Shown: piece after piece, positions 37,702 to 60,381 of the stretch
Layout of the letters: each line of letters opens with the position of its first letter
Numbering within the stretch: position 1 is the stretch's first letter
Assembly: GCF_030142075.1 (NCBI RefSeq)
Contig: NZ_CP126241.1
Location: 1,054,001-1,118,000, forward strand
Origin: Arthrobacter sp. zg-Y20
GTDB taxonomy: Bacteria; Actinomycetota; Actinomycetes; Actinomycetales; Micrococcaceae
Direction of reading: 5' to 3'
Length of the DNA: 64,000 nucleotides
Notes under the pieces: generated by a model
The model's database searches: none
Told to the model about the DNA's origin: nothing
What the model saw: the letters and a program-made list of their open reading frames with translations, nothing else
Position numbers and translations under genes: made by a program

Positions 37702-38147
37702 GGGTTCCTTCCCATGGCGGCCCTAGGTAGCAGCGTCCTGGGATTGGGGTAGTTTTCCAGCGCCCCGGACCGGCCCGAACCATTGTTTCGCTTCCGGTGC
37801 CGGGCCTAAAATGGAAGCAGCCTTAAGGGCTCCCAATACGGGGCCGACGTCGGGAGGCCTCCGAGACTGGGCCACCCCCATCCCGGCGTCGGTCCCTTTT
37901 ACATGTGGCTTTTCCTCACGGCCACGGCCCTGCCGGTATGGGCCTGGGCAGGGTACACCTCGCGCCGCCCTGTCGCCATGGAATAAGCGCCTCGCGGACC
38001 TTCCCTGGTTCATGTCTTTGTATGTACTGGACGGGGTGGAGGGCCGCGCGTATGCTCGCCTCTACTGACCAGTAGCTACCGACAGCTGCAGTATTGGGGA
38101 CCATGGTCCGGGTACTGCGTGCGTTTTTGGGGGGCGTGGCTTGAGCG
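37702..38147 (+). other. Intergenic region between pth and the regulator array
   Basis: These 446 bases hold no convincing gene; short frames here lack ribosome sites and family resemblance. Seen here are a pth terminator, a CTACTG-AC-CAGTAG inverted repeat (38062-38075) and a perfect 12-base palindrome GGACCATGGTCC (38098-38109) just before the first LuxR-type gene. Confidence 0.6.
37840..37900 (+). terminator. Rho-independent terminator after pth
   Basis: A 16-bp stem (37840-37855 with 37881-37896, two G-T pairs) is followed by TTTT at 37897-37900. It ends the conserved glmU-pth block. Confidence 0.75.
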
Positions 38148-40757
38148 ATGAAGAATGCGTCGGCTGTTGACGATCTGGTTGGCCGTGCCGACGCCCTCGA
38201 CGCAATATGCACGGCGGTGGTCGAAGGCCGCGGAGCACTGGTCCTGGGCGGGGCGGGTTTCGGTAAGACTGCTGTCCTCAAAGCGGTTTCTGAGCGGCTG
38301 AGGGAAGACTTCCACACCCTGTACGTCAGGGGAACTCCGATTTCCTCGCATACCCCCTACGGCGCATTGGCGTTTCTGATCGGCGGGCTTCCCGAAGCAG
38401 CGGTCAGCAGCCCGTTGCAGCTGCTCCGCGAGCTGGACTCATCCCTGGCAGCGGGCTCGGGCGGCCGGCGGATACTCCTTGCCGTGGACAATGCAGACCG
38501 GCTGGACCGCTTCTCAAGCATGGTGCTTGCGCAACTGCTCCGCCGCGGCAGCGTAGCGGTGGTCGCAGCGGCATCCGCACATTGGGAGTCAGGGTTCGAA
38601 TTGATGGAGCTGTGGAGCGAAGGACTGTTGGCAAGGATAGCCCTGGAGCCATTGTCCGAGCGGCAGACCCGTCAGCTGATGCAGCAGATCCTCGGTGGCG
38701 CCGTCTCCTCCCTTGCCGCCGGTACCATGTGGCACGAAACAGAGGGCAGCCCCCGTTTCATCCGGCTCATGACCGAAGCACAGGTCCGCTCCGGCACCTT
38801 GGTGCGCCGGGGTCCCGTATGGGTCAGGACGGGTTCCTTTGTCCGCACCGGGGACGTGGGAGAAGTGGTGGACGCGATGCTGGACCGGCTGGCCCCGCAG
38901 GAACGCCGGCTCGTGGAGGTCCTGGCCCTTGCACGCAGCCTTCCCCTGCCCACCGTCCTCGAACTGGTGCCCGCCGGCGTTGTCGATTCCCTCGAGGAGC
39001 GCCAGCTGATCCGGGTCGAAGACGCCGGGGCCGCTGTGCGGTTTGCCGGCGGAAGTGTGGGCACAGTCATCGCAGCGACCATGCTTCCCGGGCGGCGGCG
39101 GGAGCTGTGGGATGACGTGTCCGTTTTGGTGGACCAGGGCAGCTTGGCTCCGCCGGAACTGGTTGCCTTTGTGGGTTGGGCCATCTCCTGTGGGGGATCT
39201 CCCGGCCGGGCCGCCGTCCTGCAGGCGGCGGCTGCAGCAGCAAACGGGCGGAGCGACCCGGCCACGGCACTGCTGCTGTCCCGAACGGCGGCCGGTGAAC
39301 GGACACAGGGGCTGGTCCTCGAAGAAGTCCGAGCGCTCCGGGCCACGGGGGACTTTGAGGGGGTGGTCCGTGCAGTCGGGGAGCACCGGCCGGACCCCGG
39401 GGACAGGGACAGCTACGTGCCGCTGATGACGGAGTACGCCTATGCACTGGCGCGGTTTAACGCGCCAGACCCGGATGCCGTACTGGCCGGCGTCCAAATC
39501 TCCGGACCGCCTCAGGGCGACGGGCCTGAAGCTGCTGCGGCGCTGGTTATTGCCCGCAGCGCACTGGAACTTGACAGCGGAAACGTATCGGCCGTGCCGG
39601 ACGGCTTGGCATCGCTGACCCGTGACCTGCGGTTGAGCCACGGCATCCGCACCCATGCCCGTGCCCTGCACGCCAACGCGCTTGCCCTGGCAGGCCGGGG
39701 CAGCGACGCGATGGCCGCCCTGGCCGCTATGGGCAGGCCTGCTGACTACGCGCCGGGTGCAGGCAGCGGGGGCGCCGGAAATGCGGAGGAAATATGTACC
39801 AGGGTATTCGACACGTACATCCTCGCCGGAGAACTCGAGCGCGGCGCGGAGTTCGTAAAGCTCTTCGACGACACCGGCGTCCGGCCGTCCTATCAGGGCA
39901 GCGCAGGCGAGCTGGCTGTATCGGTGCTCGCGGTATGGCAGGGGCAGGACGGCGCTGCGCGGGAGGCGCTCACCGGCGGTATCGGACAATTGGAAGTCCA
40001 CGATCCGCAGGAGATGCTCCCACTGGCCCGCACCCTCGCGGGCTACGTCCGTGTCCAGCAGGGCCGGGCGGCGGCAGGCACACCGCTCAATGCCGGGACA
40101 ACCCGGTTCCGGGAACCGTATTTCCGGGGGTTCCAGAGGAAGTACTTCGCGATCCTGGCGGAAGAACCGGACCCGGATAGCCGCTGCCGGTTGCTGCGCG
40201 AAGCGGCGGTTTCGGCCCTGGACACAGGGTGCGCCGCGCCCGCGCTGCTGTTCCTGTCAGCAGCAGTCCGGGCAAAAGACAAGGCCGCAGCCGGGCAAAT
40301 GCTGGAAACGGCCGACAGCTCGCAGGGCAGGTTCGCGGAATCGTTGTCGCTGTACGCAGCCGGCCTGCTCAAGGATGACCCGGCATTGCTGGTTGACGCG
40401 GCAAGGGGCTTTACCGCCCTGGGCCAGCACCTGCTGTGCCGGGACGCGGCCAGCGCCGCCTCGGAGCTGCTGGCTGCCGCCCCGGGAGGAGATGAACGCG
40501 GACTGGCCAGGACGGCCCGGGGCTTGGTGAACCTGAGCCTGCGGCGGATGAAGCACATCGGCGGGCGGGCAGAAACGCTGGCCGAATTAAGTGAATTTGA
40601 AGCAGATCTTGCGCATCGTGCCGTTACGATGGCCACCACCTCGCAAATAGCCCGGGAACTGAACCTGTCGCCTCGCACCATCGAGTGGCACCTGGGAAAG
40701 ATTTTTGCGAAGCTCCACGTCTCCGGACGCGCGGAGCTGGCCGAGGTACTGGCCTAG
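38148..40757 (+). CDS. Regulator 1 of array: P-loop ATPase with C-terminal LuxR HTH
   Basis: An 869-residue STAND-like ATPase regulator of the MalT/LAL type. Walker A is GGAGFGKT (34-41); a PYGAL segment follows near 70; Walker B is LLAVDNAD (110-117), with Asn after the acidic residue. A long helical sensor region leads to a LuxR HTH in the last 60 residues, recognition helix SPRTIEWHLGKIF, ending SGRAEL. ATP binding and an unknown ligand would control DNA binding. ATG 38148 lacks a strong ribosome site. It is 16 bases from regulator 2 and probably co-transcribed with it. Confidence 0.9.
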   Translation: MKNASAVDDLVGRADALDAICTAVVEGRGALVLGGAGFGKTAVLKAVSERLREDFHTLYVRGTPISSHTPYGALAFLIGGLPEAAVSSPLQLLRELDSSLAAGSGGRRILLAVDNADRLDRFSSMVLAQLLRRGSVAVVAAASAHWESGFELMELWSEGLLARIALEPLSERQTRQLMQQILGGAVSSLAAGTMWHETEGSPRFIRLMTEAQVRSGTLVRRGPVWVRTGSFVRTGDVGEVVDAMLDRLAPQERRLVEVLALARSLPLPTVLELVPAGVVDSLEERQLIRVEDAGAAVRFAGGSVGTVIAATMLPGRRRELWDDVSVLVDQGSLAPPELVAFVGWAISCGGSPGRAAVLQAAAAAANGRSDPATALLLSRTAAGERTQGLVLEEVRALRATGDFEGVVRAVGEHRPDPGDRDSYVPLMTEYAYALARFNAPDPDAVLAGVQISGPPQGDGPEAAAALVIARSALELDSGNVSAVPDGLASLTRDLRLSHGIRTHARALHANALALAGRGSDAMAALAAMGRPADYAPGAGSGGAGNAEEICTRVFDTYILAGELERGAEFVKLFDDTGVRPSYQGSAGELAVSVLAVWQGQDGAAREALTGGIGQLEVHDPQEMLPLARTLAGYVRVQQGRAAAGTPLNAGTTRFREPYFRGFQRKYFAILAEEPDPDSRCRLLREAAVSALDTGCAAPALLFLSAAVRAKDKAAAGQMLETADSSQGRFAESLSLYAAGLLKDDPALLVDAARGFTALGQHLLCRDAASAASELLAAAPGGDERGLARTARGLVNLSLRRMKHIGGRAETLAELSEFEADLAHRAVTMATTSQIARELNLSPRTIEWHLGKIFAKLHVSGRAELAEVLA

Positions 40758-40773
40758 GAACGGGGGATATCGC

Positions 40774-43464
40774 ATGATCGGGTTGAACCCGCGGGCACTG
40801 GCGGGCAGGGACGATGTCCTTTCCGGCGTGCTCGAAAGCCTTCGCCGTCCCGGCGGCCACGGGGCGGTCATTGCAGCCGAAGCGGGCCTGGGCAAGACCG
40901 CTGTGGCGGCGGCCGCCGCCCAAGAACTGGAAACCGCTATGCCCGTGCACTGGGTGTACGCCAGCCCCGCGTTGACCGCGGTGCCCTACGGAGCCCTGGC
41001 GGCGCTTTTACCCGACATTACTCCGGAGCAAACAGGATCGGCACTGGCCGTGATGCGCGCAATCATGGGCAAACTGGGCATTGGCGAGCACGCCGCAGAA
41101 CCGGCCGGCAGCCCGGCCGCCCCCCTGCTCATAGTGGACGACGCCCACGAGATGGACCAGCCGACCCTTGACCTGCTGTCCCAACTGCTCGACGCCGCAC
41201 AGATCAGGCTGCTGGTCCTTACCCGCACTTTCGCAGACGTTGCCGGGACCCTGCCGCACATGTGGGACGGCCAGCTCACCCGCCACCGGTTGCTTCCCCT
41301 CACCGAGGATGAGGTCCACACGCTGTGCGAGCAGGAACTTCCAGGGCAGGTTGCCACCACTGCATCCGTTGAGCTGTCCCGGCTCACCGGCGGTAACCCC
41401 GTGTACCTCCTCGCCTTGATCGAGGAGGCGATCCGGAGTGGTTTCCTGGTCCAGCGGCACGGTATCTGGGTGGTGTCCGAGGCCGAAGTGCCGGTGGGTG
41501 GCCGTGTGGCGGACTTGGTCAAGGGCCGGCTGAGGGCACTCGACCCGGAGGACCGCTCGGCGCTGGAAACGATCTGCCTTGCGGAACCGTTCGACCTGGC
41601 GGCAGCCTTCCGGTTGGGCATGCACCGCTCCATAGACCGGTTGGCCGCAGCTCTGTTGATCCAGGTATGCGGGGATGCGGGGAACGCGCAGTCGCTGCGT
41701 CCCCTGCACCCGATCTACGGGGAAGCAATACGGAAACTGGTCCCGGCAGCACGCAGTGCGCGCCTGCTGGGGAAGCTCGACGGCCAGGTGCCGGGAACCG
41801 GGGAGGAAAGCCTGCTGCGCTGGGTGGCTTGGTCCCTGTCCCTGGGAACCGAAGTCCCTGCGGCCGGGTTGCTGCGTGCGGCCGAAGCAGCGAATAACCG
41901 GTCCGACCCGCGGCTCGCCCTTCGGGCAGCATCTGCCGTGCCCGACGGCGGCACCCTGGTCCCGGCCCGGTTGCAGGAAGCGCGGGCACTTCTGCAGCTG
42001 GGTGAATATGAAGCTGCCGCAGCCGCAGCTAAGGGCACCCTCGAGGAAGCGCCGGACCTGCGCACAGCCAAGCAAGCGGTAGTGGTGCATGCCCAGCTGG
42101 CCATGCGGGCAGGCGGGGATAACGCATGGGTGCGGCCGCTTTCCGTTGCGTGGCGCCAGGCGATCGAACGTTTATCGGCGGTGGAGCCGCCAGGGGCTGT
42201 GGCGCGGGCCCGCGGCGGTCCGGAAATGCTCCTGGTGTTGGAAGCGGTCCGGGAGGGGGAATATGTCCGGGCCGAGTCCGAACTCGTGGACTTGCGGGCT
42301 CGGGCCGCGGAGGATGCCGAGGCCGTACTTTTCGTCGAAGCCCTCCTGGCGGAGGTGCTGGTGGCTACTGGCCGCGCTGCAACAGCCTTGACCCACAGCA
42401 GTGCGGCCATGGCGCTGCTGCAGCGGAAAGGCTCCGGCTTGCTTCCTTATTACCCGTTTGTACTGCACCGGCACCTCACCATCCTGGTCTGGCTTGGGCA
42501 GTGGGAAGAGGTGCATCGGTGCGTGGGGACCGCCGGCTCCGCGGCGCAGCGGTCGCTGCTGCATTCCGGCGGGATGGCTGATTTCGCGCTGGGACTGTGC
42601 AGCCTGCGCTCCAGCGCCATGGAAGACGCCGCACGGCATTTTGCGGCGGCGGTCGAGGAAGCAGAGGCAGCTAACGATCCCGAAGGCGTGCTTGCCCTCG
42701 CGCTTGGACTTGGCTCCTTTGCCGCAGCCAGCCTGGGCCAGCGCGAACAGGCGGGCAGGTTGCAGCAAGCGGCTGAACAGGTGCAGTCGCACGGTCCCCG
42801 GCAGTACCAGGTACTCGCCGCCGGCATCCTCAGCGCAGCAAAACTGGCCAAGGACTCGGACGACGCTGCCGCCCGGAGCCTGCGGGCGCAGGCCGCCGCC
42901 GCTCGGGAGTCCTCCTTCACCGCCATTGAATTCACCCTGCGCCACCTCGCCATGCGGCTGGGCGACTTTTCCGACGCAGGCCGGCTGCTGAAGATTACCG
43001 AAGGTTTCGAGGGACCGCAGGCGCCGGTGGTTAACCGAGTCGCCCGTGCCGTTCTGGACCAGGACGTTAACGCACTGGCGGCGCTGGCGACCAGCCGGGA
43101 ACCTGAAATGGACCTGCTGCTGGCCCGGCAGTGCACGCTCGAAGCGCTGCGGCTGGCACGGAAAGGTTCTGACCGTGCGGTTCTGAACCGCATCCAGCGG
43201 CTGGTCGGAAAACAGGGTGGGAACGGACATTCCTCCCTGCCCGGGTTGACCCGCAGGGAACACGATGTTGCCGAACTGGTTGCAGCTGGCTACCGCAACG
43301 CAGAGATAGCCGGCCAGCTGGATCTCTCCGTGCGGACCGTGGAAGGGCACATATACCGCACGTATGAAAAACTGGGGATCAGCCGGCGCGATGAGCTCAA
43401 AGCCAGGTTCCCGTCCTTGCGCAACCCCGCCGCGGGCTGGAAGCCGCCGCCGCGCGGCGAGTAG
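40774..43464 (+). CDS. Regulator 2 of array: P-loop ATPase with C-terminal LuxR HTH
   Basis: 896 residues. Walker A is AEAGLGKT (35-42), PYGAL follows near 71, and Walker B is LLIVDDAHEMD (118-128), the most canonical of the five. Helical repeats fill the middle. The HTH has the full LuxR form: LTRREHDVAELVAAGYRNAEI and recognition helix SVRTVEGHIYRTY. ATG 40774 follows GGGGGAT; a longer frame from 40705 overlaps regulator 1. It closes a two-gene unit and is followed by a terminator-like hairpin. Confidence 0.9.
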   Translation: MIGLNPRALAGRDDVLSGVLESLRRPGGHGAVIAAEAGLGKTAVAAAAAQELETAMPVHWVYASPALTAVPYGALAALLPDITPEQTGSALAVMRAIMGKLGIGEHAAEPAGSPAAPLLIVDDAHEMDQPTLDLLSQLLDAAQIRLLVLTRTFADVAGTLPHMWDGQLTRHRLLPLTEDEVHTLCEQELPGQVATTASVELSRLTGGNPVYLLALIEEAIRSGFLVQRHGIWVVSEAEVPVGGRVADLVKGRLRALDPEDRSALETICLAEPFDLAAAFRLGMHRSIDRLAAALLIQVCGDAGNAQSLRPLHPIYGEAIRKLVPAARSARLLGKLDGQVPGTGEESLLRWVAWSLSLGTEVPAAGLLRAAEAANNRSDPRLALRAASAVPDGGTLVPARLQEARALLQLGEYEAAAAAAKGTLEEAPDLRTAKQAVVVHAQLAMRAGGDNAWVRPLSVAWRQAIERLSAVEPPGAVARARGGPEMLLVLEAVREGEYVRAESELVDLRARAAEDAEAVLFVEALLAEVLVATGRAATALTHSSAAMALLQRKGSGLLPYYPFVLHRHLTILVWLGQWEEVHRCVGTAGSAAQRSLLHSGGMADFALGLCSLRSSAMEDAARHFAAAVEEAEAANDPEGVLALALGLGSFAAASLGQREQAGRLQQAAEQVQSHGPRQYQVLAAGILSAAKLAKDSDDAAARSLRAQAAAARESSFTAIEFTLRHLAMRLGDFSDAGRLLKITEGFEGPQAPVVNRVARAVLDQDVNALAALATSREPEMDLLLARQCTLEALRLARKGSDRAVLNRIQRLVGKQGGNGHSSLPGLTRREHDVAELVAAGYRNAEIAGQLDLSVRTVEGHIYRTYEKLGISRRDELKARFPSLRNPAAGWKPPPRGE

Positions 43465-43793
43465 TTTGCCAACCAAACACCAGTAGGTTTTACTCGGGCA
43501 AAGCGTTTCCGGGGTTCGTAGCGTTATGAGCGTTACTTGAGGTTCGAGGGTGCAGCGGTGCAATTCGAGGCTCTGAAGGTTTTCTCCGACGGGGGTTGTG
43601 GAGGATAACCGCAGGGCCCCGTGCAGCCGTACCCGGACTTCGGGTCCCACAAACGGAGCCGGCGGCGTCGATGCCCTCTGAGACCGGGGCGTCCCCCCAG
43701 CCGCCGCCGGCTCCTTCCCCCTAGCTGGTAGACAGCACCCGATATTCTGAGCGCACTGGTGCATGCAACCCGGTGGACAGATGGAGCCATTCG
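43465..43793 (+). other. Intergenic region between regulators 2 and 3
   Basis: These 329 bases contain no gene. They carry a direct repeat AGCGTTA (43520-43526 and 43529-43535), a long GC-rich hairpin (listed as terminator), and TATTCT (43743-43748), a possible -10 box for regulator 3. A TGGAG ribosome site precedes ATG 43794. Confidence 0.6.
43655..43714 (+). terminator. Terminator-like hairpin after regulator 2
   Basis: GGAGCCGGCGGCG (43655-43667) pairs perfectly with CGCCGCCGGCTCC (43702-43714). The 34-base loop is large and the tail is TTCCCCC, so it is probably Rho-assisted if it terminates. Confidence 0.55.
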
Positions 43794-46100
43794 ATGGATG
43801 TTGCCGGCCCAGGCCTGGCCCGCCCGAGCGACCAAAACCCCCTGTCCGCACCGGCACATCACCTCCAGCCGCCGCCCCTGGCACAGGTGCAAAGCAGTGC
43901 AGCCTCCGCACTGGATGCGCTCAATCAAGGCATGAGCGTGGTCATTTCCGGCGCTGACGGAACCGGTAAATCCACTGTGATGGCCCACATCCTTGGCGCA
44001 CTGGGCGGGGAATTTTCCGTGCTGCGCCTGCGGGGGGCCGCTGCCTGGTCAGGGAAACCGTTCGGCGGTCTGTTCTGGCTGCTCAGCGAGCTTCCGCCCG
44101 AAGCGTTGTCCAATCCGGTGTTTGTCCTGCAGTTCGTCCGCGGAGTGTTGGCGGAAAAAGCCGGGGGACGGCGCCTGGTACTGGCAATCGAGAACGCAGA
44201 GGACCTGGACGTGTCCACCACTGCCGTCCTCCTCCAGCTCTGCCGTGCCGGATACACCCTCATGCTGGCAACAGTCAGGGACTTCTCCGCGTGCCCGGAG
44301 GAGTTTGTACGCTGGTCGGCAGACGGCTCCGTCCACAAGGAAGACCTGTGCCCGCTGCCAACGGCCGGGACGCGGACCTTGCTGGAAGACTTGTCCGCCG
44401 GCCCGGTATCCAGCCGCTTGGTGGCGGAAGTCCAGCAACGGACCCGGGGGAATCCGCTGCTGGCCACGTTGTTCTTCCAGGAACAAGTGCAGGCCGCGAC
44501 GGTGCGCCGCCGCAGGGGTACCTGGGTCTGGACCGGAGCCGTGTCCTACGCGGGTGCCCTGGCCGAACGGGTGGAAACGGAAATCCGCGGCCTTTCCCCG
44601 GCCGAAAGGTATGCCGTGGATGTACTGGCGGTTTCCGGCGGGCTGCCCGCGCCCGTGATCCTGGAGGTTGCCGATCCGGCTGCCGTGGAGCGGTTGGAAG
44701 ACATGCTTCTGGCTGCTGCGGACTCGGGCCCGGTCCGGACGCTGCGTCTGAAGGACCCGCTGCTCGCTGGAGCTGCAGCAGCGCTGGTGCCGCACGGGCG
44801 GGCCAAAGAGATACGGTCCCGGGTGGCCGTCGCCGAGGCAACCTGCCGGATTCGCGGCGGTCCAAACGCTTTTCCCGAAGAGGCAGCGGCCCGGAACGCG
44901 GTCCGGGAAGCCGTGGAACTGTCCCGCAGCGGCCGCTGGGCTGAGGCTACCGAAGCGGCCCGGGCAGGCCTGGACCTGCTCCTTGAGGACAGCGTCCGGC
45001 GCAGGGACCTGCTTTCGGAATTGTTTTGCGTGTTCCTGCGGTGCGGCGAGCTGCGGCTGGCAGCGGACGTGCTGGCCCGGACCGAGGCGGGTACGGAGGG
45101 CGTTGAGCTGCCCGGCGGCAATGATTTGTGTGCGGGGATCGTGCAGGTGCTCGGGGGAAGGGCGGACAGGGCCCTCGATTATCTGCAGCGTTCCCTTGCC
45201 CAGCTCGAGGAAAACAGGACGCAGGACATAATCCCGCTGGCGAGCGCGGCCGCGGCCTACGCCTGTGTCCTGCTTGACGACGCCGAAGCTGCACGGGCCT
45301 ACCTGGCGGCGTCCCAGCCACCGGCGGAACAACAGGCAGCAGGTGCACGGGAACCCGACCTCCGGGACACCTGGCAAAGGGACTCAGCCGAGGGCCTCGC
45401 CGGTGCCTTGGGCCGGCTGTGCACCGTACGAGGCGTTCCGGACGGGTTCTTCGGGCCGGAGAGCGTTGATACCGGCAGTGTTGAAGAAGGCAGCGTTCAA
45501 GAAGGCAGCGTTCAAGAAGGCAGCGGTGAAACGGTGAATACCGGCAGCACGGCGGCTGCCGGCCAATCCGCGTTGCAGTTGCTGGTACTGGCCGTTTCAG
45601 CGTTTCAAGGAACCCCCGGCGCGGTTGAGGAGTTGAGGGCAGCGGCATCCGCGTGCAACGGCGCTGCTGCTGCCATGTATTCGGACCTGTCCGCCGGGCT
45701 CGCCGATTCAGACCGCCTCGGTATGCTCCGTGCGGCCCGGACTGCCTACAGCCTTGGCCACTACCTCCTGGCCCATGAAGCGGCGGGCCGGGCGGTGCGC
45801 CTGGCCCGGGCGCACGCCGACCGCACGGTGCTTCGCACTGCGCGGCGGATCGAAAACGCGAGCTTCAGGATGCTGCTGGCAGCCAACTCCGTTTCAGATC
45901 GGCTGCCGGAGCTGTCGGATTTTGAGCGCGCCCTCGCGGTGGGAGCCGCAGCGGGGGAGAGCAGCTCGGACCTGGCCGCACGGCTGCATCTCTCACCCCG
46001 CACCGTGGACTGGCACTTGGGCCGCATCTTCTCGAAACTCCGCGTTTCGGGACGGGCTGAACTGCGTGAATGCCTGGAGACGGAACGCGCGGAAGCCTAA
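43794..46100 (+). CDS. Regulator 3 of array: P-loop ATPase with C-terminal LuxR HTH
   Basis: 768 residues, the shortest member. Walker A is GADGTGKS (53-60); PFGGL follows near 89; the Walker B strand reads LVLAIENAED (128-137), so the usual Asp is Glu and the next position is Asn. A hydrophilic stretch near residues 560-580 carries a 15-base tandem repeat. The HTH recognition helix SPRTVDWHLGRIF and SGRAEL match regulator 1. ATG 43794 follows TGGAG; GTG 43773 is less likely. It stands alone between two intergenic regions. Confidence 0.88.
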   Translation: MDVAGPGLARPSDQNPLSAPAHHLQPPPLAQVQSSAASALDALNQGMSVVISGADGTGKSTVMAHILGALGGEFSVLRLRGAAAWSGKPFGGLFWLLSELPPEALSNPVFVLQFVRGVLAEKAGGRRLVLAIENAEDLDVSTTAVLLQLCRAGYTLMLATVRDFSACPEEFVRWSADGSVHKEDLCPLPTAGTRTLLEDLSAGPVSSRLVAEVQQRTRGNPLLATLFFQEQVQAATVRRRRGTWVWTGAVSYAGALAERVETEIRGLSPAERYAVDVLAVSGGLPAPVILEVADPAAVERLEDMLLAAADSGPVRTLRLKDPLLAGAAAALVPHGRAKEIRSRVAVAEATCRIRGGPNAFPEEAAARNAVREAVELSRSGRWAEATEAARAGLDLLLEDSVRRRDLLSELFCVFLRCGELRLAADVLARTEAGTEGVELPGGNDLCAGIVQVLGGRADRALDYLQRSLAQLEENRTQDIIPLASAAAAYACVLLDDAEAARAYLAASQPPAEQQAAGAREPDLRDTWQRDSAEGLAGALGRLCTVRGVPDGFFGPESVDTGSVEEGSVQEGSVQEGSGETVNTGSTAAAGQSALQLLVLAVSAFQGTPGAVEELRAAASACNGAAAAMYSDLSAGLADSDRLGMLRAARTAYSLGHYLLAHEAAGRAVRLARAHADRTVLRTARRIENASFRMLLAANSVSDRLPELSDFERALAVGAAAGESSSDLAARLHLSPRTVDWHLGRIFSKLRVSGRAELRECLETERAEA
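45474..45518 (+). repeat. 15-bp in-frame tandem repeat in regulator 3
   Basis: Units start at 45474, 45489 and 45504; the last two, GGCAGCGTTCAAGAA, are identical, and a partial fourth copy follows. They encode GSVQE. The length is a multiple of three, so copy-number change would alter only loop length. Confidence 0.85.
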
Positions 46101-46351
46101 CGCCGGGCCGCTATCCTCCCGTTTCTGCCCATACAGGTGGTGCGAAGAGCGCGAACACGTAGGCCGACACCTTTATGCGGCCGCATTTCCAAGTAACCAC
46201 GTAAGGCAACTAGGGGACGCTACTCGTGTACCGCTGCAGGCGTGTTCCTACTCTGGTGCGCAACAGTGGCGCAGGTGTTCGGCCCCTACGGCGGACGCCG
46301 GGCTTCAACTACTGGACAGCAGAACCTGAATCGACAGGAACGGGTCTCAAA
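46101..46351 (+). other. Intergenic region between regulators 3 and 4
   Basis: About 250 bases. A perfect palindrome ATGCGGCCGCAT lies at 46175-46186. The frame from GTG 46226 is open into regulator 4, but G+C at third positions falls to roughly half there, unlike the coding sequence, so it is treated as leader. Confidence 0.55.
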
Positions 46352-49114
46352 GTGCAGCCTCATGATGATCAGCCGACCTCCACCCGCCTTCACACCGGAC
46401 CTGTCCAGGGCCCGCCTCCCGACCCGGGTTCCGGCCTCCAGCCCCCGCCCGCCGTCGTCGGCAGGACCGCGGTGCTGGAGGAAATCCTGAAAGCACTCTC
46501 CGGGACCGCCCAGGGCACGGGCTGCGTTCTGGTGGGAGACACCGGCATCGGGAAGACAGCCGTGATGCAGCACGTGCTCCGGCACCTGCAGGATGAAATG
46601 TACGTTGTCCAGGTCCGCGGTTCCGAATTCGCCGGCCGGACCCCGTTCGGTGCCCTGACGTTCCTGCTCTCGGACCTGGAACCGGAACTGTCCACCCACC
46701 CTGTCATGATCCTGCGCGGCCTGACCCAGCTGGTCCGGGAACGTTCCGGTGGCCGGCCCGTGCTGCTCGCCGTGGACAACGCCGAGGACCTGGATGAATT
46801 CTCCGCCATGGTCCTGACCCAGATGGTGCTGAACCGCAGCGCCGGAATGCTTGTGGCCTTCCGCGACTTCAGTTCCGCTCCGGGCGAGTTCACGGGGCTG
46901 TGGCGCGACGGCATTCTGGCCCGCGTTGACCTGGAACCTCTGGACGTGCAGGAAGCCGCCGCCTACCTGGCCTCATTACTGGGCGGGGCCGTTTCCCGGG
47001 CGGCCGCGGCAGCGCTGTGCGGTTACGCCGGCGGCAATCCCCACCTGCTGGCACTGGCCCGGCACGATTTCGAGGACGCCGGAGCACTTAGGCATCACAA
47101 CGGCACCTGGATACTCGCCGATGGGGAGGAAATCCGGGGCGGCCGGGTTGCCGCCGCGGTCCTGGGTGTCCTCACCGGACTGAGCGCTGCACAGACACAG
47201 CTGCTGCAGCTGCTGGCCATGGCGGGGTCGCTGCCGCTGCCGGTGGCGCTGGGACAGCTGGACAGTACTGAACTTGACGAGCTCCAGGAACGCCGGCTGG
47301 TCAGCCTTGATGCCCGCCCTGTTCCCGATGTGCTGGTGAGCAACCCTGTGCTGGAGCGCTCCATCCGGGCCGGGCTGAGCACTTCGCGGAAGCGGTTGCT
47401 TTTTGAGGAGCTCGGCCCCTCGCTGAACTCCCTGGAAGGTTTTGTCCTTGATCCCGTAGTGCTTGCACGCTGGCTTGAGGACATCGGCGAAATCCCCGCA
47501 ACGGAGCTGGCGGTACGCGCAGCACGCAGGGCCACTGCGGCACAGGACCCCGCAACGGCAATCCGGCTGCTCACCGCGGCGGCCGGATCCGGTGACAGCG
47601 CCGGCGCCGTCGTCGAATTGGCCCGTGCGAGGACGGCGCAGGGCGAATACGGTGCAGCTTTGGGGGTCCTCGCCCGGTTCAGGGGCGGTGAGCAGGTGCC
47701 CTCCCGGGAAGAACGCGTCCGCCTCCTGCTGGCCGAAAGCAGGGTGCTGTGCATTGAGGCCACCGGCCTGCGGGACCCGCGCTCAACGGATGCCCCCGCC
47801 GAACCCGCCAGGATGCGCCACACCGACCTGTTCGCCCAGGCAGAGCAGGAAGCGGCGGGACTCGACCAGCACCTTGCCGGTACTGCCGAGTTGAGGCGTG
47901 AACTCGCCGCAGCCCGGGCGGAATGCCACTCCGCCCACGGACGGTTCCAGGAAAACATCGCCTACCTGGCCGAGCTCGACCGGCAGGACACGGGCGCGGA
48001 TCCGGAATTCGGTATCCAACGGGCAGCATTCCGCTGCGAAGCGTGGGGGATGACCAACCGGCAGGACGACGCCGTCGAACTGGCCGGGAAGGTGGAAAAG
48101 CTGCTGGAAAGTGCGCAGATCAGCCCGGGGACGCGGGCCAGGGTGGTGGGCCGGCTGCTGCACACGTATCTGCTGACGGGCGCCCTCCCGGCATGCGGGC
48201 GGCTGCTGGCCAGATCGGCTGCAGCCGGTATGGAAGGCAGCTACACGGAATTGGCAGAAGGTTTGCTGCATGCCTTCGCCGGACGGCCGGACGCCGCGCT
48301 CCCGGCGCTAACGGCCACGGTCAACCAGCTTGCCGTCACCGGACCGGCAGCATTCCTGCCGCTCGCCGCAGCAGCCGCAGCGTATTGCCACGCGGTGGAA
48401 GGCCATACGGAAACCGCGCGCCAGTACCTGCAGATGCAGCGTGCTGCAGCCGACGGCGGCCCCTGGGCCGTACGCCGGGGAGCCCGCCACTTCGCCGCCC
48501 TGGCCGAGGCTGCGCTGGGAGCGGAAACGGGCAGCACCCGGTTTTCCTCCCTCGCGGCCCAGGACCACCGCCGTGGTGCCTACGCCTACGAGCTGCTGGC
48601 CCGAATCACCGCCATGCGGCTGGGGGATGCTGAAAGCCTGGACGACGTTCTGGCCGTTGCCGCCAACCAGCAAGGGGACTTTGCCTCCCTTTGTGAAAGC
48701 TACGCCAAGGGTTTGGGCAACGCCGACGCGCAACTGCTCCTGCGGGCCTCGGAAATAGCATCCGGTTCCGGGCACGTGATGCTGGCTCGGGAAATTTCCG
48801 AACATGCGCTGGGTATCGCCTCCGGCGCCGGGGACCGGGCGACCGTCCGTTTCATCCACCGCAGCCGCCGGGTGGCAGCCCCGGATCCGGCCGCCGAGGC
48901 GGCCGACGAATTCCTCGGCGCGCTCACCGCCCGGGAACGCTCGATTGCGCGGAAGGCCGCGGCCGGCACCAGCAACAAGAAAATCGCCGAGGAACTGGGC
49001 ATATCCGTCCGGACGGTGGAAGGGCACCTGTATCAGGTGTACTCGAAACTCCATGTGGGCAGCAGGCGGGAACTGGCACGGACCATCGCGGAACAGTCAG
49101 GGGCAAAGAAATGA
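46352..49114 (+). CDS. Regulator 4 of array: P-loop ATPase with C-terminal LuxR HTH
   Basis: About 920 residues from GTG 46352 (chosen by codon bias; GTG 46226 would add 42 residues). A Pro-rich start precedes Walker A GDTGIGKT (62-69), PFGAL near 98 and Walker B LLAVDNAED (138-146). A helical region leads to an HTH with LTARERSIARKAAAGTSNKKI and recognition helix SVRTVEGHLYQVY. Its ATPase half resembles regulators 1 and 3, while its HTH resembles regulators 2 and 5. Its stop overlaps the ATG of regulator 5 by 4 bases. Confidence 0.88.
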   Translation: MQPHDDQPTSTRLHTGPVQGPPPDPGSGLQPPPAVVGRTAVLEEILKALSGTAQGTGCVLVGDTGIGKTAVMQHVLRHLQDEMYVVQVRGSEFAGRTPFGALTFLLSDLEPELSTHPVMILRGLTQLVRERSGGRPVLLAVDNAEDLDEFSAMVLTQMVLNRSAGMLVAFRDFSSAPGEFTGLWRDGILARVDLEPLDVQEAAAYLASLLGGAVSRAAAAALCGYAGGNPHLLALARHDFEDAGALRHHNGTWILADGEEIRGGRVAAAVLGVLTGLSAAQTQLLQLLAMAGSLPLPVALGQLDSTELDELQERRLVSLDARPVPDVLVSNPVLERSIRAGLSTSRKRLLFEELGPSLNSLEGFVLDPVVLARWLEDIGEIPATELAVRAARRATAAQDPATAIRLLTAAAGSGDSAGAVVELARARTAQGEYGAALGVLARFRGGEQVPSREERVRLLLAESRVLCIEATGLRDPRSTDAPAEPARMRHTDLFAQAEQEAAGLDQHLAGTAELRRELAAARAECHSAHGRFQENIAYLAELDRQDTGADPEFGIQRAAFRCEAWGMTNRQDDAVELAGKVEKLLESAQISPGTRARVVGRLLHTYLLTGALPACGRLLARSAAAGMEGSYTELAEGLLHAFAGRPDAALPALTATVNQLAVTGPAAFLPLAAAAAAYCHAVEGHTETARQYLQMQRAAADGGPWAVRRGARHFAALAEAALGAETGSTRFSSLAAQDHRRGAYAYELLARITAMRLGDAESLDDVLAVAANQQGDFASLCESYAKGLGNADAQLLLRASEIASGSGHVMLAREISEHALGIASGAGDRATVRFIHRSRRVAAPDPAAEAADEFLGALTARERSIARKAAAGTSNKKIAEELGISVRTVEGHLYQVYSKLHVGSRRELARTIAEQSGAKK

Positions 49115-51864
49115 CACTATGGGGGCACGACCGGCAGCTGTTTGGCCGCGAACGCGAACTAGCCGAAGTAACCAGCCGGCTGCTGGACCCGGGCCTGCGC
49201 GGGGTTCTCATTCTCGGTGCCGAGGGCATCGGAAAGTCTTCCCTGGCCGAACAGGCAGCGGACCGGCTCGCCTCAATCATGGCGCCCTACTACGTCTGCG
49301 GCAGCCCCGTGCTGTCCACCATGCAGTACGGCATCCTGTCCACCTATCTGGGATCGGCCACGGCGGCGGAGATGGAATCCCCGCTGTCAGTGCTGAGGAC
49401 CGTACGGGCGCATTTCCAGCGGCTGACTGAGACCAGCGGCATGCAGAGCCTGCTGGTCGTGGACAACGCCCAGCATATTGACGAGGCCAGTGCCCACCTG
49501 CTGACCCAGCTGGCCATGTCCGGTGAACTGCGTTTGATGGTGATTTCCCGGGCGCGGGCTCCCCGCATCCATGAGCTGCTGTCGCTCGCCCGTGACGGCC
49601 TGCTGGCCCGGATCGACCTGGGACCGTTGTCCCGGCAGGCGGTCCATGAGTTCTGCGTCAGCGTCCTCGGCGGCCCCCTCCTGCAAGCCTCCTCCACGCT
49701 GCTCAGCCGCATGTCCGGGGGCAACCCGCTCTATGTCAAGGAACTGCTTGGCCGCGCACAGCGGCAGCGCCGGCTGGTGGAGGCCAACGGGGCCTGGTTC
49801 CTCACCCAGGAACCGGACTGCGTCGACACCTCGCTGGTGGACCTGGTCAAAGGAATGCTTGCGGCACGGACCCCGGCAGAACGGAATGTGCTTGAGACGG
49901 TGGCTCTGGCAGGCCGGTTGCCGCGTGCGGTGGTCTCGGCGGTGGCCGACGACGAGGCGGTGCGCTCGCTGGTGATCGACGGACTCCTGGAGATTCTTCC
50001 CGACCGTGACGAGTCGGCGCATCTGGTGCAGCCCCTGCACGCAGAGATCATCCGCAGCTTGGTGCCGGTGGCACGCAGCGCGGAGATCCGTGCACGGGTG
50101 CTCGCCCGCTACACCCCGGTGTCAGGACCCGAACCGGACCACGAGACCGGCGCCGTCCTCCGCCGCACCGAGTGGGCGTTGGACTGCGGTGAACGCCTGG
50201 GGGCGGAAGAACTGCTGTCAGCCGCGCGGATGGCCAACGGTGCCGGCGACCCCGTCCGCGGGCAGCGCTTCGCCGCAGCGGTTCACGCTTTGCCGTTCCG
50301 AACCGCAGCCGAGGTGGAACTTGCTGTCGCCTGTGCCCAGCAAGGCAGCTACTCCTGGGCACGTGCCAGGCTGGAGGACCTGGCAGAAGGAATCCGGGAA
50401 GGCAGCGGCACGGGATGGGACCAGGACAGCCTGCACCGGGCTTCCTTCACCGGTGCGCTGCTGCTGCGCCAGACCAGCGGCCGGAGCACGGAACTTCCCC
50501 TGATGGCCGACCGGTGGTTGGCAGCTGCCGCGGAAGTAGCTTCGCGGCAAAGCGCAGGTGGCTCAGTGCCCGCACAGGTGCGTGCGGCTACGGAAGTCCT
50601 GCGTGTCGCGGCGCTGGTGATGGAAGGAGACTTCAGCCGGGCCCGGACGCAGCTTGCGGAACTGGTCAAGGAGGAGTCTCCAGCCCGCAGCCACGCGGAC
50701 GGAGAACGGCTGCTGGTAGCCCACGGTCTTTACGCTGAAGTTCTGGCCGCGTGCGGCGAAGTGGGTGCCGCCCTGAAACACGCCCTGTCCGCAGCGAATC
50801 TGCTCAACTCCGCCGACGGTAAACTGCAGAGCTATTCCGGTTTCGTTTTTGTGCGGCAGGCACAGTCCCTGCTTCATTCCGGGCGTTATGCCCAGTTGGA
50901 CCAGCTCCTGGCCAGGATGCACGCTGGTCCGCAGCACCTGCTGATCAGCTTGGGCGGGACCCTGGGAGTTTTTGAAGCGGCCCTTGAAATCCACCGGGGT
51001 CGGCTGCACGAAGGGCTGCGCCGGTTGCGGCCTGCCGTGGAAGCGCTGCGGGACAGGGACCCGGAGCTGCTGCTTCCCTATGCCCTGGGCCTGGCCGGCT
51101 ACGCATCCACCGTAGTTGCCGACGGCACTCCGGCAGCGGGCTTCGCCGCCCAGGTCGAAGGGTCCCGCTACCGGGGGCCGGTGCACCTTTGGCTGACCGC
51201 GCAGGCTTACGCGGCGGCAGCCGAAGCGTCCCAATCCACGGAGGGTCCTACTTCCGGGCACCTTGCGGTGCTCGCTGCGCAGGCACGGGAAGCAGGCTTG
51301 CGCAGCACCGAAAAGGACATCCTGGAGCTGTGCCTGGCGGTGGGCGATCTTGCCCAGGCGGGACGCCTTGCCGAGCTGACCGCCGACTTTGAAGGCGGCG
51401 AGGCGGAAGCCCTGCATGCGTACGCCGTAGCCGTCGCCTCGGGCAACCCGGACCGCATGGTGGCTGCGGCCGAAGATGCCATCCGCGCGCAGAAATACCT
51501 CGTGGCAGTGGAGAGCATTGGCCATGCCATCCGTTTCTACGGAAACCACGGCAATCTCCGGCGCCAGCGTGCCCTGATCCAGCAGCTGCGCCGGCGCAGG
51601 GAAGAACTGGCGGGCGTCACCGTCTCATATCTGAGCCCGTCCCTGCACCTGGTCCGCCTGACACGGCGGGAACACGAGATTGTGGAACTGCTGCTCTCCG
51701 GGGCAACCAGCAAGGACATTGCCGCCCACTTCACCCTCTCCCAGCGCACCGTGGAGGGGCACGTCTACCGCATCTACGTGAAGCTCGGGATTAGCCGCCG
51801 GGCGGATCTGGAGTCCGCCTACCGGGCGCTTGAGCCCGGGCACCGCAGCAGTTCGCTGCTGTAG
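49111..51864 (+). CDS. Regulator 5 of array: P-loop ATPase with C-terminal LuxR HTH
   Basis: 917 residues. The start is FGRERELAEV, then Walker A GAEGIGKS (36-43), QYGIL near 72 and Walker B LLVVDNAQHID (114-124). Many Ala-rich helix pairs follow. The LuxR domain has LTRREHEIVELLLSGATSKDI and recognition helix SQRTVEGHVYRIY. It is coupled to regulator 4 through an ATGA overlap. It is the member nearest the polysaccharide operon, 256 bases before the sugar transferase, and so the first candidate to control it. Confidence 0.9.
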   Translation: MTLWGHDRQLFGRERELAEVTSRLLDPGLRGVLILGAEGIGKSSLAEQAADRLASIMAPYYVCGSPVLSTMQYGILSTYLGSATAAEMESPLSVLRTVRAHFQRLTETSGMQSLLVVDNAQHIDEASAHLLTQLAMSGELRLMVISRARAPRIHELLSLARDGLLARIDLGPLSRQAVHEFCVSVLGGPLLQASSTLLSRMSGGNPLYVKELLGRAQRQRRLVEANGAWFLTQEPDCVDTSLVDLVKGMLAARTPAERNVLETVALAGRLPRAVVSAVADDEAVRSLVIDGLLEILPDRDESAHLVQPLHAEIIRSLVPVARSAEIRARVLARYTPVSGPEPDHETGAVLRRTEWALDCGERLGAEELLSAARMANGAGDPVRGQRFAAAVHALPFRTAAEVELAVACAQQGSYSWARARLEDLAEGIREGSGTGWDQDSLHRASFTGALLLRQTSGRSTELPLMADRWLAAAAEVASRQSAGGSVPAQVRAATEVLRVAALVMEGDFSRARTQLAELVKEESPARSHADGERLLVAHGLYAEVLAACGEVGAALKHALSAANLLNSADGKLQSYSGFVFVRQAQSLLHSGRYAQLDQLLARMHAGPQHLLISLGGTLGVFEAALEIHRGRLHEGLRRLRPAVEALRDRDPELLLPYALGLAGYASTVVADGTPAAGFAAQVEGSRYRGPVHLWLTAQAYAAAAEASQSTEGPTSGHLAVLAAQAREAGLRSTEKDILELCLAVGDLAQAGRLAELTADFEGGEAEALHAYAVAVASGNPDRMVAAAEDAIRAQKYLVAVESIGHAIRFYGNHGNLRRQRALIQQLRRRREELAGVTVSYLSPSLHLVRLTRREHEIVELLLSGATSKDIAAHFTLSQRTVEGHVYRIYVKLGISRRADLESAYRALEPGHRSSSLL

Positions 51865-52120
51865 GAAGTGCCTCCGCCACCAGCCTTTTCCGTCCTGACG
51901 GAACCGTGCCCGGTGGGGCTGCTGTTTCGGCTGTTAATACATACTTCCATCGTCTAAGAGTTTCGTCTCCCCAAGCTGAGTAGTGAGACCCAAAACAACG
52001 GCGTCAGACGTGCCGGGCCGGGTATGAGGTACTCGTGTCTGCCGCATTTGGCGCTCCTAGGCTGAGGCCAATCCAGTATTTCAAAGGTCTTAATTGCGGG
52101 TTGTTCTTGGGGGACGGAAG
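51865..52120 (+). promoter_or_regulatory. Upstream region of the polysaccharide operon
   Basis: A hairpin TTCCGT/ACGGAA (51888-51903) lies shortly after regulator 5. A relatively AT-rich stretch at 51930-51944 (GCTGTTAATACATAC) nearly repeats the sequence before glmU at 33645. No gene is seen. ATG 52121 is preceded by GGGGGACGGAAG. Confidence 0.45.
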
Positions 52121-53647
52121 ATGACGGCAGTACAGGAATCCGGGACTGAAGTTCTCCACGCACCCACCTTCACTTTCCCCAGCTTTACCACCCAGGGTGT
52201 GTTCGGCCGGGACGGCCACAGGCGAAGCGCAGCAGTGGCCTGGAGCCGGCGGTACTGCCGTATCCTTGCAGCCTCCGACGCCCTCGTGGTGGCGGCCTCG
52301 GTCCTGGCAGGACACCTCTGGCAATTCGGCGGGCAAACCCCGGCGGTCCGGATCGGACCCTTTTATGCCGGGGACCTCATGGTCTCGCTCCTTATCGGCT
52401 TGGCCTGGATGCTGGCCCTGCACGTGTACCGCAGCCGCGATGCCCGAATCACGGGTATCGGCACGGACGAGTACAAACGGGTAGTGAACGCCACCGTCAT
52501 GCTGGTCGGCAGCCTTGCCTTCGCCGCTGTGGTGTTCCAGGTGGACGTGGCCCGGGGATACTTCGGCCTGGTCTTCCCGGTCGGTGCCGTGGGACTGATC
52601 TGCACCCGGTGGCTCCTGAGAAGGTGGCTCAGCCGCAGGAGGCGCCAGGGATACTATCTGTCGAAGGTCGTGGTGCTGGGACGGCCGCGGGACGTGCGGT
52701 ACGTAGTGCACCAGATCAGCGGGAAGTCCGCCTACAAGGTGGTGGGCGTGGCCCTGAGCGGGAAACCCCGCAGCTTTTTCCAGGTGGACGGTGCGGTGCT
52801 GCCCGTGGTTTCGGACGAGGACTCCGTAGTTGGGGCGGTGGCAAGGGTGGGGGCAGACGCCGTCATAGTTGCCGGACCAACCAAGGGCGGCGGACAGTAT
52901 GTCCAGGAATTGGGCTGGGAACTGGAGGAATCGGCAACGGAGCTGATCCTGACAACCGGGCTGACCAGCGTTGCCGGGCCCCGGATCCATTCCCGGCCGG
53001 TGGAGGGCCTGCCGCTGATGCATGTGGAACTGCCCCAGTACTCCGGTGCCAGGCACGCACTCAAACGGGTTTTCGACATTGTCCTCTCCGCGGCGGCACT
53101 GATCATCCTGCTTCCGTTGATGGTCGTGCTCGGGCTGCTCGTCAAGCGGGACAGCCCCGGACCGGCGCTGTTCCGCCAGGAACGGGTAGGACGGGGCGGC
53201 AAAAAATTCCTCATGCTGAAGTTCCGTTCCATGGTTGAAACGGCTGAAGACGACTTGGTCGGCCTGCTGGACCGCAACGAGGGCGCTGGGCTGATGTTCA
53301 AGATCCGCAACGATCCGCGGATCACCCGGGTGGGGGCGTGGATGCGCCGCTACTCCCTCGATGAACTGCCGCAGTTCTGGAACGTCCTGATCGGGGATAT
53401 GTCCCTGGTGGGACCGCGTCCGCCGCTGCAGCGGGAAGTGGATGGCTACCGCAACCGTGTCCACCGCCGCCTCTACATCAAGCCGGGGATCACGGGCATG
53501 TGGCAAACCAACGGCCGGTCCAACCTCAGCTGGCGGGACAGTGTCCGGCTGGACCTGTACTACGTGGAGAACTGGTCACTCACCGGCGACCTGATCATCC
53601 TCTGGCGCACGGTTGTCCAGATGTTCAAACCTCTGGGGTCCTACTGA
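52121..53647 (+). CDS. Initiating polyprenyl-phosphate sugar-1-phosphate transferase (WcaJ/CpsE-like)
   Basis: About 508 residues. Four N-terminal membrane helices (residues 45-185) precede a nucleotide-binding-like domain ([14 protein letters not shown]). The C-terminal 200 residues form the sugar transferase core: a membrane helix, then [45 protein letters not shown] and GITGMWQ. It transfers a sugar phosphate from a UDP-sugar to undecaprenyl phosphate, the first step of a repeat-unit glycan. The frame from TTG 52094 is rejected because its front is the ribosome site. It is first in the operon. Confidence 0.94.
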
Positions 53648-53706: not shown

Positions 53707-54147
53707 ATGGCCATCCGCATAGGCTACGCCGCAGGCGCTTTCGACCTGTTCCACATAGGCCACCTCAACATCCTCCGCCATGCCAGGAGCCAGTGCGACT
53801 ACCTCATAGCCGGAGTGGTTTCCGATGAACTCTGCGAGGCCCGCAAGGGCCGGCCTCCGGTCATTCCGCTGACGGAGCGCCTCGAGATTGTCCGGGGACT
53901 GCAGTGTGTGGACCGGGCTGTCGCGGAGGTCCTGCCGGACAAAATGGATACCTGGCAGCAACTGCGCTTCAATGTTTTTTTCAAGGGCGATGACTGGCGG
54001 GGTACCCCGGCCGGAACGGCACTGGAGGAGTCCTTTGCCGCCGTCGGCGTGGAAGTCGTGTACTTCCCCTACACAGTCCAAACGTCCAGTACCCGGCTGC
54101 GCCGGAGCCTGGAAATCCTGGATGCCGCAGCCGGGGGGCGGCTGTGA
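53707..54147 (+). CDS. TagD-like cytidylyltransferase
   Basis: A 146-residue nucleotidyltransferase. GAFDLFHIGHLNIL contains the HxGH motif; RLEIVRGLQCVD, FFKGDDWRG and the C-terminal TVQTSSTRLRR follow the pattern of glycerol-3-phosphate cytidylyltransferases. It would couple CTP to an alcohol phosphate. ATG 53707 follows GGAAGG at 8 bases; ATG 53647, which overlaps the previous stop, would add 20 unusual residues. The actual substrate (glycerol phosphate or another polyol phosphate) is unknown. Confidence 0.9.
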   Translation: MAIRIGYAAGAFDLFHIGHLNILRHARSQCDYLIAGVVSDELCEARKGRPPVIPLTERLEIVRGLQCVDRAVAEVLPDKMDTWQQLRFNVFFKGDDWRGTPAGTALEESFAAVGVEVVYFPYTVQTSSTRLRRSLEILDAAAGGRL

Positions 54148-57764: not shown

Positions 57765-57890
57765 CCGTGGTTCCACGAACGCGAGAAGAAGACGTTGCGC
57801 GGCCGGGGCCGGCCGCTGTCTTGGGCCGGAGACCGGTCCAGCTTCAACTGCTCCCGGGTGCATGGCACCCATCAACGGATGGACACCGTA

Positions 57891-60302: not shown

Positions 60303-60348
60303 GGGTCCAGCCGCGGATCAAAACACGGATGGATAAGTGAAACCGGAA

Positions 60349-60380
60349 GCGGGACCGGCCCTGGAGCCGGTCCCGCTTTT
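60349..60380 (+). terminator. Rho-independent terminator
   Basis: A perfect 11-bp stem GCGGGACCGGC/GCCGGTCCCGC (60349-60359 with 60366-60376), a 6-base loop and TTTT (60377-60380). It ends the polysaccharide operon and separates it from convergent genes. Confidence 0.9.
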
Positions 60381-60381
60381 C

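Follow-up and report, generated by a model that had tools for sequence, protein, structure and literature searches.

STAND (signal transduction ATPase with numerous domains) switching has been described for the regulator MalT (PMC6468293), and more than one LAL (large ATP-binding regulator of the LuxR family) occurs per biosynthetic cluster in the cases of NysRI and NysRIII, AmphRI and AmphRIII (PMC3282765), and GdmRI and GdmRII (PMC7105598), as far as the available parts of these papers go. The excerpt available on BldM-WhiI of Streptomyces describes two regulators of the same family as a heterodimer (PMC4125116). The locus considered here lies in a stretch of 64,000 nucleotides (hereafter the window) of Arthrobacter sp. 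zg-Y20 (NZ_CP126241.1, 1,054,001-1,118,000; host genome 3.53 Mb), where five consecutive LAL genes, LAL1-LAL5, precede a surface-glycan locus led by a gene for a WbaP-type sugar-phosphate transferase. The statement in a first-pass annotation of this DNA that LALs usually occur singly was too strong, given the clusters with several LALs cited above. The LALs of the array form a system built from pairs, which is not dedicated solely to the adjacent glycan locus; R1, a candidate hairpin RNA, is the least expected part of the locus.

By their predicted domain content, the five genes encode LAL/STAND-type regulators that combine an AAA_16 ATPase with a LuxR helix-turn-helix (HTH). The open reading frame (ORF) listing showed 38148-51864 to be occupied by five plus-strand ORFs, with probable starts inside the longest ORFs at 40774 (LAL2), 43794 (LAL3), and 46352 (LAL4). 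LAL1 (38148..40757) is an A-type regulator and LAL2 (40774..43464) its B-type partner; LAL3 (43794..46100) is an orphan A-type gene with a shortened middle that clades with LAL1; and the A-type LAL4 (46352..49114) is followed by its B-type partner LAL5 (49111..51864), the start of which overlaps the LAL4 stop by four bases. For LAL2 and LAL4, the longer ORF was scored against Pfam. A C-terminal GerE/LuxR HTH exceeded the Pfam cut-off in all five proteins, and an N-terminal AAA_16 match was obtained in all five and exceeded the cut-off in four, LAL3 scoring 21.9 against a cut-off of 32.6. The five plus-strand ATPase-LuxR genes reported by the first-pass annotation were thus confirmed, and all five carry a GxP motif (GNP or GSP) after the NTPase. 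The motifs that it had attributed to every gene need three corrections: the P-loop of LAL2 reads AEAGLGKT, with Ala in place of the first Gly; LAL3 carries Glu in place of the Walker B Asp (AIENAEDLD); and LAL5 reads QYGIL instead of the P[YF]GxL-like segment. The middle of LAL3 is shorter by ~170 residues (profile positions 388-560 unmatched), and, as regards a helical tetratricopeptide repeat-like arm, LAL4 alone gave a weak TPR_19 match, below the cut-off (18.9 bits against 25). The best NCBIfam matches were AbsR2 and HTH entries, all far under their cut-offs: the array proteins reached 44-93 bits against the AbsR2 equivalog NF050132 (cut-off 850), and LAL2, LAL4, and LAL5 reached 35.2, 24.6, and 24.5 bits, with the HTH part only, against the MalT equivalog NF003420 (cut-off 537). 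The shortened middle of LAL3, together with frequent loss of the Walker B Asp, is a trait of the clade to which the window belongs; other genomes, G003, G006, and G014 among them, have a full-length LAL3. The LAL3 of the window also contains a GSVQEGSVQEGS-type repeat. A sixth ATPase-LuxR gene is located away from the array in the same genome (G000:C1:1597371-1599851, minus strand).

In the phylogeny, the array is made up of two A-B pairs and an orphan A gene, in the order A1-B2, A3, A4-B5. The tree was built from 107 of the 212 recovered LALs (seven genus genomes spanning the genus, and all 72 LALs from other genera) and rooted at its midpoint for drawing only. Every array position of the genus formed one clade (SH-aLRT 99-100); the pair-first genes (positions 1, 3, and 4) fell into half A of the tree and the second genes (2 and 5) into half B, at the base of which ten pair-first genes of other genera formed an extra clade. 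Positions 1 and 2 shared sister pairs in G104, G158, G183, and G088, and positions 4 and 5 did so in G124, G191, G286, G260, and G220, while position 3 was a partnerless sister to position 1. In mirror-tree comparisons, the A and B distances were correlated with an r of 0.84 (35 pairs, 17 genomes), in contrast to a mean r of 0.28 and a maximum of 0.67 when partners were shuffled within genomes (0 of 2000 shuffles reached 0.84). When a single genus genome was kept, r was 0.82 (21 pairs, 10 genomes), a value reached by 1 of 5000 shuffles. The grouping 1-2, 3, and 4-5, already proposed from the layout of the genes, is therefore supported by both the tree and the mirror trees. The two halves also differ in their ATPase. 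The second acidic residue of Walker B is the catalytic one; outside the genus, this second residue was acidic in 34 of 35 B genes and non-acidic in 29 of 37 A genes, with A denoting here any gene outside the B clade. Within the genus, position 4 was D-N and position 2 was D-D in 28/28 genomes each. The HTH residue following HLY was Arg in 91/91 B genes and more varied in A.

The array and the glycan operon also share an operator of fixed spacing, a composite motif that consists of CGAGTA-N5-TACTCG, then 22 nt, then a TAnnnT -10 element. On the plus strand of the window it was matched upstream of LAL3 (43480..43524; CCAGTA-N5-TACTCG, 22 nt, TAGCGT), upstream of LAL4 (46210..46254; CTAGGG-N5-TACTCG, 22 nt, TACTCT), and upstream of the glycan operon (52019..52063; CGGGTA-N5-TACTCG, 22 nt, TAGGCT), and it was absent upstream of LAL1. 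Allowing up to two mismatches, the window contained four composite matches (0.46 expected), namely these three and a fourth inside LAL2; the shorter TACTCG-N22-TANNNT at one mismatch matched four times where 1.5 matches were expected, an excess that is not significant by itself. The k-mers enriched in LAL-LAL gaps relative to control gaps of the same loci, in 26 of the 29 genus genomes (G020, G022, and G027 being left out), included TACTCG, TACTCGTG, CACCAGTA, and others. These k-mers recurred in the LAL5-WbaP gaps, where TACTCGTG was found in 15 genomes against 1.6 expected; between pth and LAL1, TACTCGTG did not occur in any of the 26 genomes. Half-sites numbered 6.74 per kb in LAL-LAL gaps, 5.89 in LAL5-WbaP gaps, 1.33 between pth and LAL1, and 1.36 in control gaps, and opposed half-sites favoured a start distance of 10 (21 cases; next best 6). 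A 45-nt matrix trained on 34 LAL-LAL promoters scored at least 10 in 15 of 22 LAL5-WbaP gaps and in one of two LAL5-sufS gaps (G008); that score was seen in none of the 24 pth-LAL1 gaps, in none of 8 further gaps at a LAL edge, and in 6 of the 249 controls (60 bases or longer). All six of these control matches were in glycan stretches, three after WbaP and three in the insert between LAL2 and LAL3. In other genera, 16 of the 69 gaps that flank a LAL scored at least 5, as did 4 of the 107 remaining gaps, the two best of these four being WbaP promoters. The operator precedes WbaP even where no LAL is its immediate neighbour (G210 and G046) and is retained in front of sufS in G220 and G008. Searches of whole genomes for the exact palindrome CRAGTA-N5-TACTYG detected 20 sites in 17 of the 29 genus genomes (51 for the reversed control), of which 12 were in the gap just 3' of LAL5, two more in the same locus, and six elsewhere; the signal is thus one of position, not of genome-wide abundance. 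Loosely spaced boxes, the pattern first used on whole genomes, gave one site against six and six for the reversed control and were dropped as the wrong motif. Extra half-sites on the 5' side of the operator, at a distance of 41 or 51 bp, were noted in the LAL5-WbaP gaps of G002, G011, G015, G018, G023, and G024; these offsets are near multiples of the helical turn, and the LAL5-WbaP gap of the window contains no such half-sites.

The conservation of the array is far beyond chance. A profile built from the five LALs matched in every one of the 29 genus genomes, and each of the 28 examined in detail yielded five LAL genes 700 aa or longer; the 29th (G022), in which the LAL frames are broken, was left out of this set. 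Some of the genus matches were positioned from extracted loci instead of the profile listing, and loci were annotated with a home-made codon-usage gene caller and BLAST to proteins of the window or of their own downstream regions, with approximate gene starts. The upstream neighbours of the array are glmU-prs-rplY-pth. The WbaP-type gene (52121..53647, plus strand; Pfam Bac_transf, 231.5 bits) starts 256 bases 3' of LAL5, as given in the first-pass annotation, and the remaining glycan locus in the window (53707..63873) harbors genes for a cytidylyltransferase, glycosyltransferases, a CDP-alcohol phosphatidyltransferase, a beta-propeller protein, and Wzz, together with ORFs without a Pfam match. 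A Bac_transf match was found in 27/29 genus genomes, in all of which one copy lies directly 3' of LAL5, and gene content beyond WbaP varies widely. LAL2 and LAL3 are separated by a stretch of 17-27 kb in G001, G004, G012, and G015, and a contig end falls between them in G023. The G001 insert (18 ORFs, Pfam) contained Wzx-type, Wzy-type, aminotransferase, and glycosyltransferase genes; the inserts of G004, G012, and G015 were compared by gene size and order only. Within the family Micrococcaceae, LAL matches were present in 177 of 295 genomes (three candidates scored per genome), and the approximately 25 layouts inspected span pth-LALs-sufS without glycan genes to LALs-WbaP. Outside the family, LAL pairs were located directly 5' of WbaP in 4 of the 11 loci extracted from another family, f6 (L220, L222, L225, and L226). 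Two further features were recorded in these surveys. A second WbaP-type gene occurs in 10/29 genus genomes (e.g., G003, G010, and G027), on the opposite strand and ~19-51 kb past the first, and in several loci outside the family (L221, L223-L226, L228, and L229) the A genes of the LAL pairs adjoin a divergent gene pair of ~397-418 and 381-382 aa.

The pairs, their co-inheritance, the A/B asymmetry, and the shared operator of fixed spacing are features of the genomes themselves. From the sequences we infer binding, signals, and direction of control, and it is on balance probable that the array operates as an ATP-dependent transcription cascade of matched heteromeric pairs. The A subunit (mostly D-N, probably with slow ATP hydrolysis) and the B subunit (mostly D-D) would assemble as a STAND platform on a signal sensed by their helical middles, and the paired LuxR HTHs of the A-B assembly would bind the palindrome CGAGTA-N5-TACTCG. 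The palindrome centre would be at about -42 to -43, because the palindrome lies ~31 bp ahead of the TAnnnT -10 element; this is the usual class II activator position. The placement of the operators suggests a cascade from LAL1/2 to LAL3 and LAL4/5 and then to the glycan operon, in which LAL1/2 would be the input because their promoter region lacks the operator, LAL1/2 would turn on LAL3 and LAL4/5, and all LALs would jointly turn on the WbaP-led glycan operon.

Both R1 copies of the window lie on the plus strand: copy 1 between pth and LAL1 (37840..37896; covariance model 64.3 bits, fold -40.2 kcal/mol, z -3.9), and copy 2 downstream of the operator and ahead of LAL3, in the presumed leader (43655..43714; 78.6 bits, z -4.5). 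The candidate is a ~60-nt hairpin; across 35 aligned examples, GAGAC in the loop and CCC within a 3' bulge never vary. RNAalifold returned 17 pairs, 12 of them with compensatory changes on both sides, and a fixed-structure count found 99.5% of cells paired, compared to 27-52% in slid versions; this alignment had been selected by folding, so that pairing is partly built in, the double changes less so. None of 500 shuffles reached the covariation score, and 15/500 reached the number of pair types. A covariance-model search of the genus identified two copies in 28/29 genomes and three in G004, and all 59 were in this locus, with copy 1 between pth and LAL1 and copy 2 either between LAL2 and LAL3 (12 genomes) or after LAL5 (17). 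In the family, R1 was present in 150/295 genomes, 148 with LALs and two without (G041 and G093), and 29 genomes had LALs only and 116 neither, counts that ignore phylogeny and to which stricter filters were also applied. An order-level scan detected R1 in 15/297 genomes, all within the family. Where R1 and an operator over threshold occupied one gap, R1 was preceded by the operator in 17 of the 20 genus gaps (the 20 include 10 matrix training gaps) and in 8/8 gaps of other genera, so that R1 would lie in the leader; R1 was ahead of the operator in G006, G011, and G015, and it was found without an operator over threshold in three genus gaps and ten other-genus gaps. In 20 stretches round further R1 copies, hand-picked and not random, the next gene was WbaP in seven, and others were a cytidylyltransferase, three BTAD regulators, a polysaccharide deacetylase, and a major facilitator superfamily protein; in L196, L197, and L199-L201 the next gene was on the other strand or distant. 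R1 copy 1 is kept between pth and sufS in G088 and G158, with no LALs in that interval. Upstream of copy 1 in the window, a promoter-like TTGTTT-N18-TAAAAT was read by eye (37783..37812, plus strand); ATTGTT followed by CCTA occurred there in 19 of 20 genus genomes compared, and G014 had GTTGTT. Scans of 37690-38160 for intrinsic terminators and sigma-70 promoters reported neither the copy 1 stem nor this promoter-like site. None of 4227 Rfam models matched window positions 37000-53000, which hold both copies, at an E of 1 or better in a search of the window genome only, and a known riboswitch or small RNA was therefore rejected as the identity of R1. A leader for antitermination by a NusG paralogue (LoaP/RfaH type) was likewise rejected, as each of the 29 genomes had a single NusG match. 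In G046, three additional R1 copies (L193-L195) were observed 85-88 nt 5' of genes for BTAD-domain regulators.

Complements of the unpaired parts of R1 occur at the starts of LAL and glycan genes. The loop GAGACC has its complement, GGTCTC, just 5' of the LAL4 start (46343..46348, plus strand), and the bulge CCCCCA has its complement, TGGGGG, 5' of the WbaP start (52108..52113, plus strand); both candidate sites were recognized by sequence match and enrichment. Among start regions (-60 to +15) of 25 of the 29 genus genomes, TGGGGG was the top-ranked 6-mer of the array and WbaP starts (25/146 vs. 8/481), and GGTCTC, ranked 71st overall, was present in 15/25 LAL4, 6/23 WbaP, 24/310 cargo, and 6/171 core starts. 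In other genera, GGTCTC was found in 12/82 LAL starts and 6/391 other starts (p 3e-6), and TGGGGG in 9/82 and 14/391, respectively (p 0.009). LAL starts of 20 loci without R1 contained TGGGGG in 0/35 and GGTCTC in 1/35 cases, which is the expected direction without being significant (p 0.06 and 0.10). Neither seed was present at the LAL3 and LAL5 starts of most genomes. Predicted duplex energies with the loop seed were -12.6 for pth and -12.8 for LAL4, and a cargo gene (GT1972) with the bulge seed gave -16.0; the modelled energies are compatible with antisense pairing and not specific, and antisense action of R1 is therefore treated as a lead.

Several results weigh against the cascade of matched pairs. 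The Walker B contrast is not strict within the genus, as LAL1 is D-D in 6/28 and LAL5 is D-N in 12/28 genomes, and co-inheritance of neighbouring genes is no proof of protein contact. Seven of the 22 LAL5-WbaP gaps scored below 10, three of which resemble the operator by eye with a spacing of 23 nt. The operator template was fixed after the LAL5-WbaP sequences were known, so the test of these gaps was not blind. The exact palindrome has no match in the window genome, where the left half of the sites is altered. The matrix found nothing in 20 loci (19 from other families and the R1-less family member G051; 0/39 LAL-flanking and 0/38 other gaps), and because no LAL-flanking gap scored there, the operator cannot be regarded as a general feature of LAL loci. 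Furthermore, G008 and G016 retain all five LALs and have no Bac_transf match genome-wide, with sufS following LAL5, and other genera have LAL pairs between pth and sufS with no glycan genes between (G211, G220, G270, and G111). The glycan operon at this place was therefore rejected as the sole target, and the co-occurrence of array and operon expected by the first-pass annotation stood for the 27 genomes with WbaP after LAL5 and failed for these layouts. They are what would be expected if the array were a conserved pth-sufS regulator set with its main targets elsewhere and the glycan locus a frequent guest of the hotspot, as would the fixed position of the array at pth in the genus genomes inspected, the variable cargo after WbaP, and the operator retained ahead of sufS. 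That explanation is nevertheless rather unlikely, for WbaP is preceded by an identically spaced copy of the operator also in loci where no LAL adjoins it, A-B pairs lie directly 5' of WbaP in another family, and G001 has a second glycan cluster between LAL2 and LAL3. The combinatorial or mutually regulating switch for the polysaccharide locus suggested by the first-pass annotation is thus supported in form, because the shared operator at LAL3, LAL4, and WbaP links the array genes with one another and with the glycan operon in the family, but not with the neighbouring glycan locus as its only target.

For R1, a tentative and somewhat unlikely reading is a trans- or cis-acting antisense RNA, the loop (YGAGACC) and 3' bulge (CCCCCA) of which would pair with GGUCUC and UGGGGG at LAL and glycan ribosome-binding sites and tune translation. 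We infer this action from the compensatory changes in the stem, the rank of UGGGGG at array and WbaP starts, the frequency of GGUCUC at LAL4 and other-genus LAL starts, the near-absence of both seeds from R1-less loci, and the operator ahead of copy 2. On the other hand, counts over orthologues lack independence, the UGGGGG enrichment is weak in other genera, GGUCUC ranks low in the 6-mer test, the R1-negative comparison is not significant, duplex energies fail to separate the targets cleanly (pth and GT1972), LAL3 and LAL5 mostly lack either seed, several copies have no obvious target, and in the gaps listed above R1 precedes the operator or stands without it. R1 might instead be merely an unusually conserved intrinsic terminator or DNA hairpin (cruciform), since copy 1 follows pth, in the genus its stem continues into CCCTTT or CCCTTA, and T-runs are longer in the four other-genus genomes compared. 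This, too, is doubtful: terminators need neither an invariant loop nor an invariant 3' bulge, the two copies per genome are both in this locus, and copy 2 has a poor T-run and usually lies between the operator promoter and the start codon. It is unlikely that the cascade and R1 together form a two-layer Micrococcaceae circuit, of a type absent from the literature matches listed, in which obligate STAND-LuxR heteromers of Walker B Asn and Asp subunits would activate each other and the glycan operon via the inverted repeat at ~-42.5, and R1, as a new small RNA present in two copies and encoded within the array, would seed on regulator and glycan start codons with its loop and C-rich bulge.

Some other elements were observed around these loci. 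In L068, the pth-mfd interval contains, before mfd and outside the window (at ~9-13 kb of the locus), a run of putative alternate-signal-peptide (TasA-like) proteins and a putative SipW-type signal peptidase, named on the basis of BLAST similarity, and in G124 a similar block is divergent from a LAL pair. The prs-rplY gap of G104 (L140:16498-16907) contains several copies of a TCGAGCCTGTCGAGACC-like repeat that is unrelated to R1.

In these soil bacteria, STAND regulators occur naturally as matched pairs whose operator can be predicted, which makes heteromeric STAND signalling testable. The locus has also revealed an RNA motif that is backed by covariation, lacks an Rfam match, and is closely tied to LALs across 295 family genomes, and it offers a concrete handle on the control of variable surface glycans by Micrococcaceae.

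Among the literature matches listed (including PMC9659744, PMC7105598, PMC6468293, and PMC3282765), the parts of the papers available mention neither a LAL array tied to glycans nor an R1-like RNA. The LALs of the array resemble MalT/LAL regulators in size, in the N-terminal P-loop NTPase, and in the C-terminal LuxR HTH, but they score far under the MalT equivalog cut-off and differ in their fixed A-B pairs and diverged Walker B. MalT boxes are direct repeats, whereas the predicted operator of the array is an inverted repeat. As in the Streptomyces clusters with several LALs, multiple LALs share one locus here; those LALs, however, serve antibiotics, whereas the array is a genus-wide feature of a core locus tied to surface glycans and R1. 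BldM and WhiI both carry LuxR-type HTHs and provide a precedent for a heterodimer of regulators from the same family, although they are atypical response regulators and not STAND ATPases. The 6C RNA of Actinobacteria is a small RNA with C-rich unpaired segments; R1 also contains a C-rich unpaired segment but is distinct in that the region holding its two copies had no match to any Rfam family.

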